Below are positions 2,367 through 23,204 of a stretch of DNA of 23,204 nt, in pieces. A program made the translations under genes and the position numbers. Under the pieces are notes generated by a model that saw only the letters and a program-made list of their open reading frames with translations, did not search any database and had not been told where the DNA came from. Source of the stretch: a virus. Location: positions 1-23,204 of IMG/VR virus record IMGVR_UViG_3300006802_000605. One strand, written 5' to 3'. The stretch's first letter is position 1. The number at the start of each line of letters is the position of its first letter.

Positions 2367-2948
2367 GAGAATCTGATACATCTTGAGGGCCTGCTGTTTG
2401 TAAATGTGGCGTGTCGTGCGCGTGTATCCAAGCGTGGCGCAGTAGTTGTCCCAGAACTTCTGCTGCCAGCGGGAGTACAGCATCAGCCCATACTTCTTGT
2501 GGTCCGTCCAATCCTTAGGGATACCGGCAGCGTGCGCGAGCCGAGGTATCGGGGTGAGGGCGAACATAATGCACGTGACCGCCACCGGCACACCCGGAGC
2601 CCGCTCAGCGCACAACCTCAGTTGGTCCTGCGGGATACCCCAAGCGTCAAGGTCAATCAAATCGAACTCAGCGAGGTCTAGCGACGGCATCACCTTACGG
2701 TTGTCCCCGACAATGATCTTGGGATCGGAATAGGGCTTCTTGTCGATCTTGAGAATGTCGAAGGACACGTCGGGCAGTTCAGCGGCGACACTTTCCCAGA
2801 TGAGGCTGTCTCCTGCGAATGCGTCTAGCACCCGCACCCGATCCTTACTCAACCCCCGTATCGCATCGGTGCGGAGTTGCACCTTCACCTTGTGATGCGA
2901 GTTATTCGTCTTAGTCAGACCCGGGCCTCTAGTTCTGGCTGCTGGCAA
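2361..2948 (-). CDS. SAM-dependent methyltransferase-like protein with DLDAWG motif (195 aa)
   Basis: The likely role is transfer of a methyl group from SAM; the substrate is unknown. VLDAFAGDSLIWESV matches a motif I SAM-binding loop, FDILKIDKK looks like the acidic loop after strand 2, and FDLIDLDAWGIP takes the place of motif IV. DLDxxGxP resembles Trm1-like tRNA guanine N2-methyltransferases more than the NPPY or DPPY of common DNA adenine enzymes. The start is best placed at a TTG at 2948, because GGAGGTGGAAG sits directly before it; a TTG at 2975 is possible. The gene overlaps the ParB-like gene by 20 bases. ParB-domain and methyltransferase genes are often adjacent in phages, which suggests a DNA-modifying pair, but an RNA target should be considered. 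Confidence 0.7.
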   Translation of the reverse strand: MPAARTRGPGLTKTNNSHHKVKVQLRTDAIRGLSKDRVRVLDAFAGDSLIWESVAAELPDVSFDILKIDKKPYSDPKIIVGDNRKVMPSLDLAEFDLIDLDAWGIPQDQLRLCAERAPGVPVAVTCIMFALTPIPRLAHAAGIPKDWTDHKKYGLMLYSRWQQKFWDNYCATLGYTRTTRHIYKQQALKMYQILW

Positions 2949-3486
2949 CTTCCACCTCCACCGGAAGGCCCTCAAGCACCGATTCGATCATGTCATGCAA
3001 ATGGATAGGGGCAGCCACAAGCCAATACGTCCGCTCAAGCGGGCGAATCTCCACGTCCTCCTCCGACTCGTCAGGAAGATCGGTGGATTCTTTAATCAGT
3101 TTGTCTAAATCTTTCGCATCCCAGCCCGTGCCCAACAGGTCAGATTCGTGCATGACCTCTTTCAGTAGCGTGGCGAGCGGGTCTTTGTCGTACTTGGCCC
3201 GGTCGCTTGTCCGGTTGTCGGCTAGGAGAATCTTCTTAGCCTGAGCGTCGTCTACGTCAAGGTACATAACCGGAATGGTCTTCATGCCCACGTTCTGAGC
3301 GGCCTGCCACCGGTGCGTACCCGCAAGGATCACATCTGTGCCCTCTTGCGCCAGGATGGCCCCGTAGAAACCGTTAATGCGGATGGACTCAGCAATCGCA
3401 TCCACATCCCCGACCCGGGGATTCTCCGGATGGGCCTTCAGTTGCCCAATGGGCACGTTCACAACCTTGGGCTGCTTAACAGCCAT
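2929..3486 (-). CDS. ParB/sulfiredoxin-fold N-terminal domain protein (185 aa)
   Basis: The N-terminal 90 residues carry the ParB-like fold: VVNVPIGQLKAHPENPR, DAIAESIRINGFYGAILA, and GTHRWQAAQNVGMKTIPV, followed by DNRTSDRAKYD. The GTHRW block corresponds to the GxRR-type nucleotide-binding motif of ParB proteins. There is no HTH domain for parS binding, so this is not a partition protein. Such stand-alone domains usually sit beside DNA methyltransferases or terminases in phages. The C-terminal 80 residues are acidic and unassigned. The ATG at 3486 follows TAGGAGGGGTT, one of the best ribosome sites in the window. Nuclease activity has been proposed for the superfamily but cannot be read from the sequence. 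Confidence 0.85.
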   Translation of the reverse strand: MAVKQPKVVNVPIGQLKAHPENPRVGDVDAIAESIRINGFYGAILAQEGTDVILAGTHRWQAAQNVGMKTIPVMYLDVDDAQAKKILLADNRTSDRAKYDKDPLATLLKEVMHESDLLGTGWDAKDLDKLIKESTDLPDESEEDVEIRPLERTYWLVAAPIHLHDMIESVLEGLPVEVEVASSQN

Positions 3487-5670: not shown

Positions 5671-5864
5671 TAAGCCTCCTGCGGGGCTGCTAGGGCCATG
5701 CGGGAGGGATGTACGCGGGAGCCTAGGGCCAGCGGCACGCCGCCGGAGTGGCAATGGTGCCCCGGATGAGCCTTGCACCACGGGCAACGCAATCGCATCG
5801 CCGCCCTAAACATAACCCAATCCCGGTTAGGGTCAAGGGCCTTGTAGGCCGCGTCCGGGGTCAC
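5670..5864 (-). CDS. Small zinc-finger protein, C-X2-C-X7-C...H type (64 aa)
   Basis: The core is RCPWCKAHPGHHC, with C27, C30, C38 and a distal H52 in VHPSR as likely zinc ligands. The CPxC-xA-xPGxxC...HPxR pattern is widespread in actinobacteria and their phages as an uncharacterised finger. The GTG at 5864 shares GTGA with the helicase-loader-like stop, and its own stop overlaps the HNH start. The HNH gene directly after it suggests a role in DNA handling. Alternative: a short DNA- or RNA-binding adapter. Confidence 0.8.
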   Translation of the reverse strand: MTPDAAYKALDPNRDWVMFRAAMRLRCPWCKAHPGHHCHSGGVPLALGSRVHPSRMALAAPQEA

Positions 5865-6295
5865 TCCGGCCTCTTGGCAAGGCCACTCAGGTTCACGTCC
5901 CGCTGAGCCGTTGCCGTGACCTGACGCTTGACGCCGACCTTCGCATCCGCCACAGCCTCAGCAGCCTTGTCATCCAAGCCGTCAGCGATAGCGATGAACC
6001 ACGCCCCAATCCAATCCTGATACGCTCGAACATCATTAGCGTCAACAGGCGGCAGCGGAGCGACCCTGTTACCGATACGCGCACGCCGAACAGCCCCAAC
6101 CCGGGTACACACATCCGTGGGCAGGATCGAATGCGGGGACTCCTTGTAGTGTGCGATAACCGCCTCACGGGCGTCATCGAACATGAAGCCACCGATGAAG
6201 GCGTGCCACGCCGTAACGTCAATCTCACCAAAAGACCTACGTGAGTCCACGGCAGCAATCATCGCCAGGATGGCGGCAGTCTCTTGGAGTGTCAT
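5861..6295 (-). CDS. Putative replicative helicase loader/inhibitor, G39P-like (144 aa)
   Basis: The N-terminal half fits the SPP1 G39P helicase-loader pattern: MTLQETAAILAMIAAVDSRR, a conserved DVTAWHAFI with Trp, DDAREAVIAHY, and ILPTDVCTRVGAVRRAR. G39P-like proteins bind the host or phage DnaB-type helicase and deliver it to the origin. The C-terminal half is Ala-rich and variable, as expected. The gene starts with ATGA overlapping the initiator-like gene, exactly the initiator-loader order seen in lambda O-P and SPP1. No helicase or polymerase gene is in the window, so it probably recruits a host helicase. The fold call is from pattern only. Confidence 0.68.
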   Translation of the reverse strand: MTLQETAAILAMIAAVDSRRSFGEIDVTAWHAFIGGFMFDDAREAVIAHYKESPHSILPTDVCTRVGAVRRARIGNRVAPLPPVDANDVRAYQDWIGAWFIAIADGLDDKAAEAVADAKVGVKRQVTATAQRDVNLSGLAKRPE

Positions 6296-7026
6296 TCCGC
6301 CCCCGTCAGGATGCGCGACAGCCCGGAGATGCGGTCCTCAGCCGTAGCGGGACCACGACGGGTAGACGCCGTAGGCGGGTTCATCATCACGTTCACCTCA
6401 GACGCCAGGGTAGAAGGGTGCAAACCCTTCGCGGACACGGAGCGACATGCCTCCAATACTACCCCAGGTGCGAAACCCTGATCTAGTAGCAGCCTGACTT
6501 CCCGAGCCGTCTGCCCTATCACTCGCTCAGGCGGACGAGTACGCAAACCGTCAATCCACGCCTTCACGATGGTGCCCGCGTTCGCGGCTTCAGACGCGAC
6601 AACTAGTTCTTGGTTGTTATTAGACGGTTGTAAGGACGATTGACCCCTAGCAAAGTTGGGGAGTTGACCGTCAGAGTTGGGGAGTTGCGGGTCAAAGTTG
6701 GGGAGTTCGACCCCAACTGAGTTGGGGGTTTCCTCACGGGGGTTCTCCCCAACAGAGTTGGGGTTAAATGGGAGTAGGCGATACTCCGTAGCACGACCCT
6801 TACTGCTGCCTTTCTTCTCAATCAGCAGCGTGCCATCCTGCACCATCTGTAACACAGACTGACGCACATACTCCACAGAACACCGCGCCTTACGGGCAAG
6901 CGAGTTCTGCCCCGCATAGAACCATCCCTCATCATTCGCATGGTCAGCCATAGCAAGATGCAGCAGCAGACGCGCCCCCTCATACGGGGACTCAGACCAA
7001 ACACGGTCCATCCACTTAATGCTCAC
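6292..7026 (-). CDS. Replication initiator-like protein, N-terminal winged helix (244 aa)
   Basis: Probably the origin-binding initiator. Residues about 20-90 read as a winged HTH: LLLHLAMADHANDEGWFYAG, SLARKARCSVEYVRQSVLQM, then a wing ending TEYRLLPF. The middle (about 92-140) is a low-complexity linker with repeats of LPNF or LPNS, encoded by an array of GTTGGGG repeats. The C-terminal 90 residues (KAWIDGLRTRPPERVIGQTA and onward) form a second helical domain. The GTG at 7026 shares GTGA with the upstream stop. A gene with an iteron array in its middle, followed by a helicase-loader gene, parallels lambda O and its internal origin. A plain transcription regulator is the main alternative. 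Confidence 0.72.
   Translation of the reverse strand: MSIKWMDRVWSESPYEGARLLLHLAMADHANDEGWFYAGQNSLARKARCSVEYVRQSVLQMVQDGTLLIEKKGSSKGRATEYRLLPFNPNSVGENPREETPNSVGVELPNFDPQLPNSDGQLPNFARGQSSLQPSNNNQELVVASEAANAGTIVKAWIDGLRTRPPERVIGQTAREVRLLLDQGFAPGVVLEACRSVSAKGLHPSTLASEVNVMMNPPTASTRRGPATAEDRISGLSRILTGAE
6652..6763. repeat. Iteron array, candidate replication origin inside the initiator gene
   Basis: Three direct repeats of (A/A-G)AGTTGGGGAGTT start at 6652, 6673 and 6694, exactly 21 bases apart (two helical turns). Two further copies of GTTGGGG start at 6721 and 6757, and each is paired with an inverted copy to give CCCCAAC-N3-GTTGGGG at 6711-6727 and 6747-6763. That makes seven copies of the core in 112 bases. 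The flank at about 6600-6636 is only about 38 percent GC, against a clearly higher background, and could be the unwinding element. It lies in frame in the initiator gene, as the lambda origin does in gene O. Confidence 0.7.
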
Positions 7027-7460
7027 TCAGCCTCCCAACCACAGTTGGGGCACGGCTTGGACTTACGCCCATGCGGCTCAACCTCACGGCCCGCAACGAA
7101 ATCACCATGAACGTACACCTTGCAACGGTCCCGCGATTCCTTAAGCCGCGCAATACGCCCATCCTTGTGCATCACGGACAGAACACCCGAAGCGGTGCCG
7201 TGATGCCACCCCATCGCATCGCCCAGTTCCTTCCATGTCAGCCCCTCAGCCCCTGCCTGATGCAAAGCAAACAGCGCCGCCGACTGACGGTATGAAGTCA
7301 CACCGGACTTGTCCGCATCCTCAGCCCGCGCCCTTGACGTACTTGACCCGGACCAACCCGAAGTACCCGCGTAAGGCAGGCTAGGGCTACTGTCATTTAG
7401 CAGCGCCTCCATGACCAACGCAAAACTACCGAACTGATCCCATAACGTAGGCTCTTCCAC
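7023..7460 (-). CDS. Winged-helix DNA-binding protein with C-terminal zinc ribbon half (145 aa)
   Basis: A DNA-binding protein of unknown target. A winged helix occupies about residues 48-115: SYRQSAALFALHQAGAEGLT, WKELGDAMGWHHGTASGVLS, then the wing GRIARLKESRDRCKVYV. The C-terminus ends in CPNCGWEAE, half of a zinc ribbon. The first 45 residues are Ser-rich and probably disordered. I chose the GTG at 7460 because GAAGGGAG precedes it and the protein then begins with EEPTLWDQF; the longer frame has an unlikely Arg-rich extension. It follows the ERF gene by 23 bases and overlaps the initiator gene by GTGA. It may regulate replication or assist the initiator. Confidence 0.8.
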   Translation of the reverse strand: MEEPTLWDQFGSFALVMEALLNDSSPSLPYAGTSGWSGSSTSRARAEDADKSGVTSYRQSAALFALHQAGAEGLTWKELGDAMGWHHGTASGVLSVMHKDGRIARLKESRDRCKVYVHGDFVAGREVEPHGRKSKPCPNCGWEAE

Positions 7461-7483: not shown

Positions 7484-8092
7484 CTAAGCCCTGGCAACGT
7501 GCCAATCCGTGACCGCCTCGCCTAGCGCGGCAGACCACTCATCCGTAATCTGAAACCCCTTAAGGTGCGCGACGATACCAGCGATAACCGCCTCATCCGG
7601 CGCAGACTTAATCGCATTCATGGCCCGCGTGTACGTCTCCTCATCCATCACCGTAGGAGAATCGACAGGAGCCCGCTCATACGACTGTGAATCCGGGTCA
7701 GGCTCATCAGTAGGCAACGCAAGAGCCTGCAACAGCGCAGTACGAAACGCAACGCTCATAGCCTTAGCCGTAGCCTTGTCACCGGAATCCATAGCCTCAC
7801 CCGGCACCGTAGCCGTCAGACTAGAACCGTCACCCGCCGTGAACGTGTACTTGACGATAACCCGCACATGCCCCATAGGGGTACGGTTCTTGCCAATCTC
7901 CACCGTGCCGTAATCGAAAGACTGCACATCCGGAGTAACCACAACGCCATGACGGCGCAAAGCCGGAGACACAGCGTTAACCACAGCGTCAATGCCACGG
8001 AAGTTAAACCGCTGACCCTGGTTGTAATCATCCTTACGCACAGCCCCAACCTCAGCCATGATGGCGGACAGCGCCTGCACAATGTCACTCAC
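7484..8092 (-). CDS. ERF-family single-strand annealing protein (202 aa)
   Basis: A recombinase that anneals complementary single strands, as P22 Erf does. The ERF signature is clear: FNFRGIDAVVNAVSPALRRH near residue 30, GHVRVIVKYTF, then VPGEAMDSGDKATAKAMSVA and LLQALALPTDE. The last 60 residues are a variable C-terminal domain (TYTRAMNAIKSAPDEAVIAG). The GTG at 8092 shares GTGA with the Gam-like gene upstream, so the two are coupled. The pair forms the usual phage recombination unit, with Gam blocking host exonuclease and ERF repairing or circularising DNA. No partner exonuclease is visible in the window. Confidence 0.92.
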   Translation of the reverse strand: MSDIVQALSAIMAEVGAVRKDDYNQGQRFNFRGIDAVVNAVSPALRRHGVVVTPDVQSFDYGTVEIGKNRTPMGHVRVIVKYTFTAGDGSSLTATVPGEAMDSGDKATAKAMSVAFRTALLQALALPTDEPDPDSQSYERAPVDSPTVMDEETYTRAMNAIKSAPDEAVIAGIVAHLKGFQITDEWSAALGEAVTDWHVARA

Positions 8093-8634
8093 TTAGACAC
8101 CTCCACGGAGAATCGAACGTCGTGACCGGTGACCTTAACCCCCGGCACCACTTCACCGGAGTGAGGGTCAATCGCATTCTCACCCGACACCTCAAGCACA
8201 ACCTTCATGTCAGCGACATTGGGTTCTTCCTTAACGCGCACAAGGTCAGGGCGGTTAGCCTTAGCCCACTCAAGGAACGCATCCTTGTCCACATCGAATG
8301 ACGGTTGAGCAAGGCGAGACTTAATCGTTCCGTACGGAGTAGAAACAGACTTGCGGCCCTCTACGCGCTGAGCGCGACCGTACTCAATGAGGATGGCCTC
8401 AAAGTAGTCCGTGTCACGCAACGGCTCACGGGACTGCTGCTCAGCCCACGCCTGAATGCGCTCAATCTCCGCGTCTGCGATGTGTTGGATTTCCTTGAGC
8501 CGCTGACTAGCAGCAGCCATCTTTCGCATAGCCCACACGGCTTGCTCATCGTTCTGAATGCGGAACCGCTCACGGTCCTCAGAGGCTACGGGCGCTTCAG
8601 CGTCCCAGTCGATAGCCTCAATGCTGTCACTCAT
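8089..8634 (-). CDS. Gam-like host-nuclease inhibitor (181 aa)
   Basis: Resembles the Mu Gam family, which coats DNA ends and blocks host exonucleases. The N-terminal half is a long charged helix pair (MRKMAAASQRLKEIQHIADA, then EIERIQAWAEQQSREPL), followed by FEAILIEYGR and the conserved KSVSTPYGTIKSRLAQPSF block, with FLEWAKANRPDLV after it. The ATG at 8634 follows AAGGGAGACGGC; an upstream GTG/ATG option is less good and crosses the promoter motif. Its own promoter-like 22-base motif lies 27 bases upstream, so this gene probably opens the recombination-replication operon. Confidence 0.82.
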   Translation of the reverse strand: MSDSIEAIDWDAEAPVASEDRERFRIQNDEQAVWAMRKMAAASQRLKEIQHIADAEIERIQAWAEQQSREPLRDTDYFEAILIEYGRAQRVEGRKSVSTPYGTIKSRLAQPSFDVDKDAFLEWAKANRPDLVRVKEEPNVADMKVVLEVSGENAIDPHSGEVVPGVKVTGHDVRFSVEVSK

Positions 8635-8661
8635 GCCGTCTCCCTTCTTAGACGTGACCCC

Positions 8662-8683
8662 ACCATAGCACACCCCAGTTAGG
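8662..8683 (-). promoter_or_regulatory. 22-base promoter-like motif upstream of the Gam-like gene
   Basis: The minus strand shows CCTAACTGGGGTGTG joined to CTATGGT. It fits TAACnGGGGTGTGnTAnnnT, shared exactly in spacing with sites at 21957-21978 and 22340-22361. The right end reads as an extended -10 (TGCTATGGT). The start codon is 27 bases downstream of the -10 with AAGGGAG between them. There is no clear -35, so the GC-rich half may bind an activator or repressor. Confidence 0.6.
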
Positions 8684-21344: not shown

Positions 21345-21353
21345 ATTGTATCA
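21345..21353 (-). promoter_or_regulatory. Extended -10 promoter element (TGATACAAT)
   Basis: TGATACAAT matches TG-n-TATAAT at five of six hexamer positions and overlaps the stop codon of the upstream gene. The ATG at 21321 is 23 bases downstream with a strong ribosome site between. It lacks the TAACnGGGGTG block found before the -10 at the three motif sites, so it may be unregulated by whatever reads that block. Confidence 0.5.
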
Positions 21354-21932
21354 GACGCTAGCGGTTGCCCGCGCCACGATAGAAGCCTTCGTCGGCCTCT
21401 TAAAGAACCCGAACAGCGGGTCATCATCAGAGGCCGTCAGCGTGGCGGTGAACGTCACCGTGTCACCCTCCTCCGCGCTGACCGTGTTGTAGTTGCCTTC
21501 CAGCGACCGGGGCATGGTGCCCCACAACCGGAAGCCCTCAGTAGTCTCAACCAGCATCTTCAGCGTGATCCCGCCGGAGTACGTGTAGTACGTCTCCTGA
21601 GCCTTGATTGACACGATCACACCGGTCACCGTGTTACGGCCCTCAGGCACACTCACACCGGCTTCCAGCAGCGCCGCACGACGCGCCTCACGCTCAGCCT
21701 TGGCACCCAAGGCGGCAGCGCGAGCGGCCTCACGCTCAGCCTGCTCGGCAGCGTACTGAGCCTGACGCTCAGGATTAGGCGTACAGCGGTGGCTAGGCCA
21801 GTAGGTGCGCTGAGCGCCGTACTCCGTGCCGAACCACTCCTTAGGCTGAGCCAAGTAACGCTTGCCGCTCTTAGCGGTCATCCACGTAACCATCGTGTAG
21901 CAGTCGCGGCACATGAACATCGTGTCGCTCAT
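21351..21932 (-). CDS. Zinc-finger protein with Ala-rich helix and OB-like C-terminus (193 aa)
   Basis: A likely nucleic-acid-binding protein of unknown role. The N-terminus has FMCRDCYTMVTW and a later SHRC, together a C-X2-C...H-X-C zinc site. Residues about 60-95 are an Ala/Arg/Glu-rich helix (QYAAEQAEREAARAAALGAK). From about residue 97, NTVTGVIVSIKAQET, KMLVETTEGFRLWGTMPRSL and EGDTVTFTATLTAS form a strand pattern like an OB fold. The ATG at 21932 follows GAAAGGGGGCAAGAC; a GTG at 21950 is possible. It has its own 22-base promoter-like motif upstream. Confidence 0.82.
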   Translation of the reverse strand: MSDTMFMCRDCYTMVTWMTAKSGKRYLAQPKEWFGTEYGAQRTYWPSHRCTPNPERQAQYAAEQAEREAARAAALGAKAEREARRAALLEAGVSVPEGRNTVTGVIVSIKAQETYYTYSGGITLKMLVETTEGFRLWGTMPRSLEGNYNTVSAEEGDTVTFTATLTASDDDPLFGFFKRPTKASIVARATASV

Positions 21933-21956
21933 GTCTTGCCCCCTTTCCACCCCTTA

Positions 21957-22616: not shown

Positions 22617-23204
22617 TCACAATACGGCTAGGTCACCCCAAGCACCATGCCCCACAAGCAACGTGACAAGGCCAGCCGGAGAATCCTGACCCGTCCGATG
22701 CTTCCACCATTGCGAACCACCGTCCAACGCCGGAATCTGAAGAAACGATTTAGCGCCCGTCTGCTCCACACGCAAATGGTGAAGGTGCGCCCCCATCAGC
22801 AACGTAGCCGAACCGATCGGCTGCATACCGTGAGCCTGACCCGCCCACCACTTAATCGGGTCACGCCCAAACTGATGACCATGCGCGAACCCCGTAGGAG
22901 TACCCGCCACATCCAACGTGATCGTCAACTCATCATCCTGCGGGAACACAAACGAAACATTCTCAAACCCACCCGAAAGACGTATCGCATCCGACACAGC
23001 AGCCGCACCCTCAACCGCCCACGAATCCGTGTACGAGCGCACCACCTTACCCACACGCTGCCCCTCATCGTGATTACCCGGCACCACAGGAATAACCACA
23101 CGGTCAGCAAGCGGAGCAAACACCTTTACCTGATGAAGCATCAAACGGCGGAACACCCTGACCTGCTCCGTGATCGACAAGTCAAGACGACCGGCAGCAG
23201 CAAG
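22617..23204 (-). CDS. Calcineurin-like metallophosphoesterase, C-terminal part (cut by window edge)
   Basis: A metal-dependent phosphoesterase. The frame is open to the right edge, so the start is outside; a TTG at 23180 is only the first possible start in view. PVVPGNHDEGQ is the GNHD motif, FAHGHQFG and GAHLHHL are the later histidine motifs of the two-metal site. The N-terminal GDxHxG motif would lie outside the window. Actinophages often carry such genes beside DNA metabolism genes; proposed roles are nuclease or nucleotide phosphatase. Two small genes follow immediately. Confidence 0.88.
   Translation of the reverse strand, partial: LAAAGRLDLSITEQVRVFRRLMLHQVKVFAPLADRVVIPVVPGNHDEGQRVGKVVRSYTDSWAVEGAAAVSDAIRLSGGFENVSFVFPQDDELTITLDVAGTPTGFAHGHQFGRDPIKWWAGQAHGMQPIGSATLLMGAHLHHLRVEQTGAKSFLQIPALDGGSQWWKHRTGQDSPAGLVTLLVGHGAWGDLAVL

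Follow-up and report, generated by a model that had tools for sequence, protein, structure and literature searches.

The array of iterons described here is very probably the replication origin of this actinobacteria-type phage, located inside the gene of its own initiator protein, in the part that encodes the linker between an N-terminal DNA-binding domain and a C-terminal domain. This assignment, based on sequence comparison, predicted models and analogy, places the locus in the lambda O/SPP1 gp38 type, with a G39P-like helicase loader. The window (the whole stretch of DNA analysed) is an entire IMG/VR virus record, linear and 23,204 bases long, and possibly a fragment; the best matches of its tape-measure gene are to Arthrobacter phages and are of low identity.

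Counting both strands, the window contains 15 copies of the heptamer GTTGGGG, against 4.4 expected and a maximum of 12 in shuffled sequences. Seven of the 15 copies are clustered at 6655–6763, inside the gene at 6292–7026 (minus strand), starting at 6655, 6676, 6697, 6721 and 6757 on the plus strand and at 6711 and 6747 on the minus strand. The initial annotation had counted seven cores in 112 bases; the count is correct, but the span is 109 bases. The motif positions confirm the spacing that it gave, with a 21-base period for the three direct repeats and a 36-base offset between the two palindromes. The array is better described, in the sense of the gene, as five CCCCAAC iterons pointing in one direction, with spacings of 36, 24, 21 and 21 bases. 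Iterons 1 (6747–6763) and 2 (6711–6727) are extended to full CCCCAAC-N3-GTTGGGG palindromes, with TCT and TCA as the respective central triplets, and one further iteron is a degenerate palindrome. The direct iterons 3, 4 and 5, also on the minus strand, have the cores AACTCCCCAACTTTGACCC (6697–6703), AACTCCCCAACTCTGACGG (6676–6682) and AACTCCCCAACTTTGCTAG (6655–6661). The array is the densest 7-mer cluster of the window. When the window was scanned with a 19-bp matrix derived from the five iterons, the top seven matches all fell within the array, and neither a second array copy nor a strong extra site was found outside it. A search of the window against Rfam matched no family.

The repeats also encode protein. 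The linker residues over them are LPNF/LPNS/LPNF and PNSVG, in agreement with the LPNF/LPNS linker of the initial annotation, and the three LPN motifs are spaced exactly seven codons apart. Such regularity would be expected if the repeats were a by-product of a proline-rich linker peptide, under protein-level selection or generated by tandem duplication, an explanation we consider extremely unlikely. In 5000 synonymous codon shuffles within the gene, with the protein fixed, the linker contained at most five cores, compared to the seven observed; with codons drawn from the usage of the phage (5000 trials), it contained at most four. As synonymous shuffling never gives seven cores, the array is not explained by protein coding and is more than coding requires. 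The core is furthermore present on both strands, the linker is predicted to be disordered, and two relatives discussed below retain the sites in a different reading frame or with other residues. Elsewhere in the window, a 27-nt unit that ends in CTCAG is present in three imperfect copies at 21671–21772, within the gene at 21351–21950; the copies encode a stretch rich in alanine, arginine and glutamate and are probably a coding repeat.

Between the iterons and the sequence encoding the C-terminal domain, an AT-rich stretch (6601–6640) is a candidate unwinding element. Its GC content is 37.5%, compared to 58.0% for the window, matching the stretch of about 38% noted beside the array beforehand; about 0.5% of the 40-mers of the window are equally low, and it is neither unique nor the lowest-GC spot. 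An unusually low-GC 40-mer is present at the corresponding place in many relatives too. GC skew, suggested earlier as a check, shows no switch at the array and is uninformative, the main genes all running one way and the record maybe being a fragment.

The initiator gene encodes 244 amino acids and is matched by O-like and replication-initiation PHROG profiles: phrog_391 and phrog_8540, both O-like, match the N-terminal part (E about 1e-5) and phrog_8064 the C-terminal part. The AF2 model contains a winged helix (residues 1–86), a region of low confidence (about 93–146) and a helical domain (about 150–215); pLDDT exceeds 90 in most of each domain and drops below 50 in the linker. The low confidence at residues 93–146 places the array over a predicted disordered linker, which, being disordered, may tolerate a sequence dictated by the iterons. 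The N-terminal domain (residues 1–86; 6769–7026, minus strand) is the proposed iteron reader. Its best Foldseek matches are the N-domains of RepA initiators (4pql, 4pt7 and 5kbj), and profile searches gave DnaD matches; the RepA_N domain PF06970 is absent among the Pfam matches up to E 0.1, although the fold resembles 4pql and 4pt7. The model and the PHROG matches thus uphold the winged-helix protein of the initial annotation. The conserved C-terminal domain (residues 148–221; 6364–6585, minus strand), matched by phrog_8064, shared with 47 IMG/VR relatives and modelled as helical with pLDDT above 90, is proposed to contact the loader.

Directly downstream, the gene at 5861–6295 (minus strand) encodes a protein of 144 amino acids that profile, fold and neighbourhood identify as a putative G39P/lambda P-like helicase loader; the initial annotation had called the gene helicase-loader-like. 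The profile match is to SPP1 G39P (1no1, E 0.01), the N-terminal helical fold of which is present in the predicted model. VIA-align superposes 64 residues of the model on 1no1 with a Z-score of 10.5 and an rmsd of 1.1; lambda P (9oa1_Y) is second, at a Z-score of 8.8. Immediately after the C-domain initiator, nearly all relatives have a loader-like gene, and in Microbacterium phages the homologue, located between the initiator position and DnaB, is annotated as a helicase loader. Scanning with the loader by itself gave no close relative. A search of the window for a DnaB gene was negative; such a gene is present in only five of the 44 relatives' records, which can be fragments, suggesting that most relatives recruit the helicase of the host. 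The same replication/recombination module includes an ERF-type single-strand annealing protein (7484–8092, minus strand; PF04404) and a Mu Gam-like end-protection protein (8089–8673, minus strand; PF07352). Near it, the gene at 2929–3486 has a ParB-like N-terminal domain. A Gp37/Gp68-type DUF5131 gene is found at 1499–2431 (E 4e-78), and a gene of this family is also near a related initiator in the Streptomonospora plasmid phiM2. A calcineurin-like phosphoesterase match near the record end (22617–23180) is below the Pfam cut-off.

The winged helix of the initiator is about equally similar to many regulators in structure comparisons, and relatives are annotated as hypothetical, HTH or transcriptional repressor proteins. 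The repeats might therefore be operators, the protein being a transcriptional repressor with binding sites in its own coding sequence; the winged-helix fold and the annotations agree with this, but we judge it highly improbable. The sites are in the middle of the gene and not at a promoter, no promoter-like match is nearby, the window has no further strong site, the family matches are to replication initiators, and the G39P-like loader gene comes next in nearly all relatives. Autoregulation could exist alongside origin function. An imperfect palindrome just upstream of the initiator start, CCCAACCACAGTTGGGG (7034–7050), was rejected as an autoregulatory operator because it covers codons for Cys-Pro-Asn-Cys and is not conserved in the relatives L058 and L059. 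RefSeq calls members of the family 'transcriptional repressor' in Arthrobacter phages Laroye, LiSara and Salgado; the modelled domain layout argues for a replication initiator in family members so labelled.

Scans for close relatives with the full initiator, in viral and genome contigs, gave no matches, and relatives were therefore recovered by single-domain alignments. A profile search of IMG/VR with the C-terminal domain yielded 47 loci, of which the 44 distinct ones were analysed, taking the 300 nt before the C-domain as the linker zone and 1856 tiles of the same loci as controls. At least five copies of one 7-mer are present in 24 of the 44 linker zones and in none of the 1856 control tiles; for at least four copies, the numbers are 30 of 44 and 32 of 1856. 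The other 14 of the 44, about a third, have fewer than four exact 7-mer copies in the linker zone, which weighs against the origin reading. In a second set gathered via the N-domain, 40 of 48 distinct zones contain at least four copies. Three loci found in this way, L061, L062 and L076, have arrays of AAGGGTGACAT, GGTGCAA and GGTGAAGCCCA, respectively, directly after the winged helix; since their linkers carry arrays too, the embedded array appears to be general for this N-domain class. An exact scan for the double palindrome gave no match, and the stretches of L107 that were compared are not present in the window.

The relatives provide the strongest evidence, and a first comparison indicates that it is the DNA that is conserved. 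In L011, the spacings are 36, 23 and 21 bases, compared to 36, 24, 21 and 21 in the window; all iteron copies read TATCCAAC instead, and translation runs through the direct iterons in another frame, giving NYPT in place of LPNF. As the layout is kept with a changed core and a shifted frame, the DNA and not the residues is what is conserved. L060, with an N-domain 58% identical to that of the window and a different C-domain, retains TCCCCAA, encoding other residues. The check proposed initially, whether repeats persist when linker residues change, is thus positive for both. L058 and L059, with N-domains 89% and 88% identical to that of the window, share its iterons, with ACTCCCCAACT repeated every 21 bp. 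L011 also has one isolated strong iteron-like site, AACAGCCCAACTGTGTTGG (805–823; score 19.1), about 2 kb upstream of its array; this is a possible second binding site or operator.

Clustering separates 14 N-domain types, and the iterons differ between N-domain groups. Recombinant pairs of relatives, with a C-domain similarity above 0.87 and unrelated N-domains, have 0–17% of their iteron words in common, whereas N-similar pairs have on average 63–73% in common. Partial Mantel correlations of the iterons are positive for both the N-domain (0.42) and the C-domain (0.37); as the latter is also positive, the argument for the N-domain rests on the discordant pairs and not on correlation alone. That the iterons follow the N-domain across relatives supports, but does not prove, recognition; part of the co-variation could be due to linkage, the two being adjacent on the DNA. 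The dependence also bears on whether the array is a secondary site, such as a parS-like partition site, a recombination site or a second origin, with the main origin elsewhere in the genome. The ParB-like gene at 2929–3486, the two origins of SPP1, oriL and oriR (PMC6316719), and the possibly fragmentary nature of the window would fit such a site; the array type, however, tracks the N-domain of the initiator itself and there is no second array copy in the window, making this very unlikely in our view.

Repeats in the initiator coding sequence between the DNA-binding and C-terminal domains, a predicted unwinding element beside them and a winged-helix N-domain related to O-like proteins (from PHROG matches and the model) are all consistent with an origin inside the initiator gene. 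For the steps that go beyond the sequence evidence, we infer a mechanism from lambda, SPP1 and pSK41 RepA. The winged-helix domain would bind the five phased CCCCAAC iterons and wrap the DNA, and the resulting strain would open the adjoining AT-rich stretch. The C-domain would then hand over to the product of the downstream gene, the putative G39P/lambda P-like loader, which would deliver DnaB helicase, probably that of the host, onto the opened strand.

In lambda, the iterons are in the middle of initiator gene O and are followed by an AT-rich tract (PMC7466680). The O-like N-domain, the adjacent loader gene, the resemblance of the loader model to P (Z 8.8) and recruitment of the host helicase, as suggested for most relatives here, are shared features. 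The iteron sequence is different, however, every iteron of lambda has inverted-repeat symmetry while only two of the five are full palindromes here, and the C-domain is of an actinophage family, with similarity to O only at the PHROG level. In SPP1, direct repeats and an AT-rich region lie inside initiator gene 38 (oriL), the end of which is overlapped by the loader gene (PMC6316719). Over 64 residues, the predicted loader has almost the same fold as the SPP1 loader gp39 (Z 10.5), but the iterons and host group of SPP1 are different and this phage has its own helicase, gp40, while a DnaB-type gene was not found in the window or in most relatives. In pSK41, the RepA N-domain reads boxes located centrally in its own gene, where the ori encodes a dispensable linker, and the C-domain is conserved; in the staphylococcal chimera pPR9, the N-domain is swapped together with the ori over a constant C-domain (PMC5703833). 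RepA N-domains are also the best Foldseek matches of the N-domain described here; pSK41, however, is a plasmid and not a phage, and its Rep is reported to have a DnaG primase interaction domain, where a G39P-like loader gene is found here. SPP1 gp38–gp39 and pSK41 RepA parallel the present locus as closely as lambda does. In Staphylococcus phage 80alpha, the initiator gene (ORF20) is thought to hold the origin and is followed by a loader gene (ORF21), although the loader is DnaC/DnaI-type and not G39P-type (PMC5499656). An origin inside the gene has also been proposed for mycobacteriophage repA (PMC7157519).

The arrangement of an origin in the initiator gene is already known, being established for lambda, SPP1 and pSK41; what is added here is the breadth of an actinophage family and its natural recombinants. 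We suggest tentatively, with doubt slightly outweighing confidence, that actinophages carry an exchangeable origin-specificity cassette, in which about 14 unrelated-looking N-domains, most with their own linker iterons, precede one conserved C-domain and a G39P-like loader gene, and recombination in the linker swaps reader and sites in one step. If this is true, co-infecting or resident phages would avoid cross-replication. As far as the literature found goes, mapped origins are few among actinobacterial phages, and the comparison provides a sequence-only recipe that yields candidates for the origin, the initiator and the helicase loader in dozens of them. With numerous natural combinations of a DNA-binding domain with its site, as well as recombinants of these, the recognition rules of this initiator class are directly testable.
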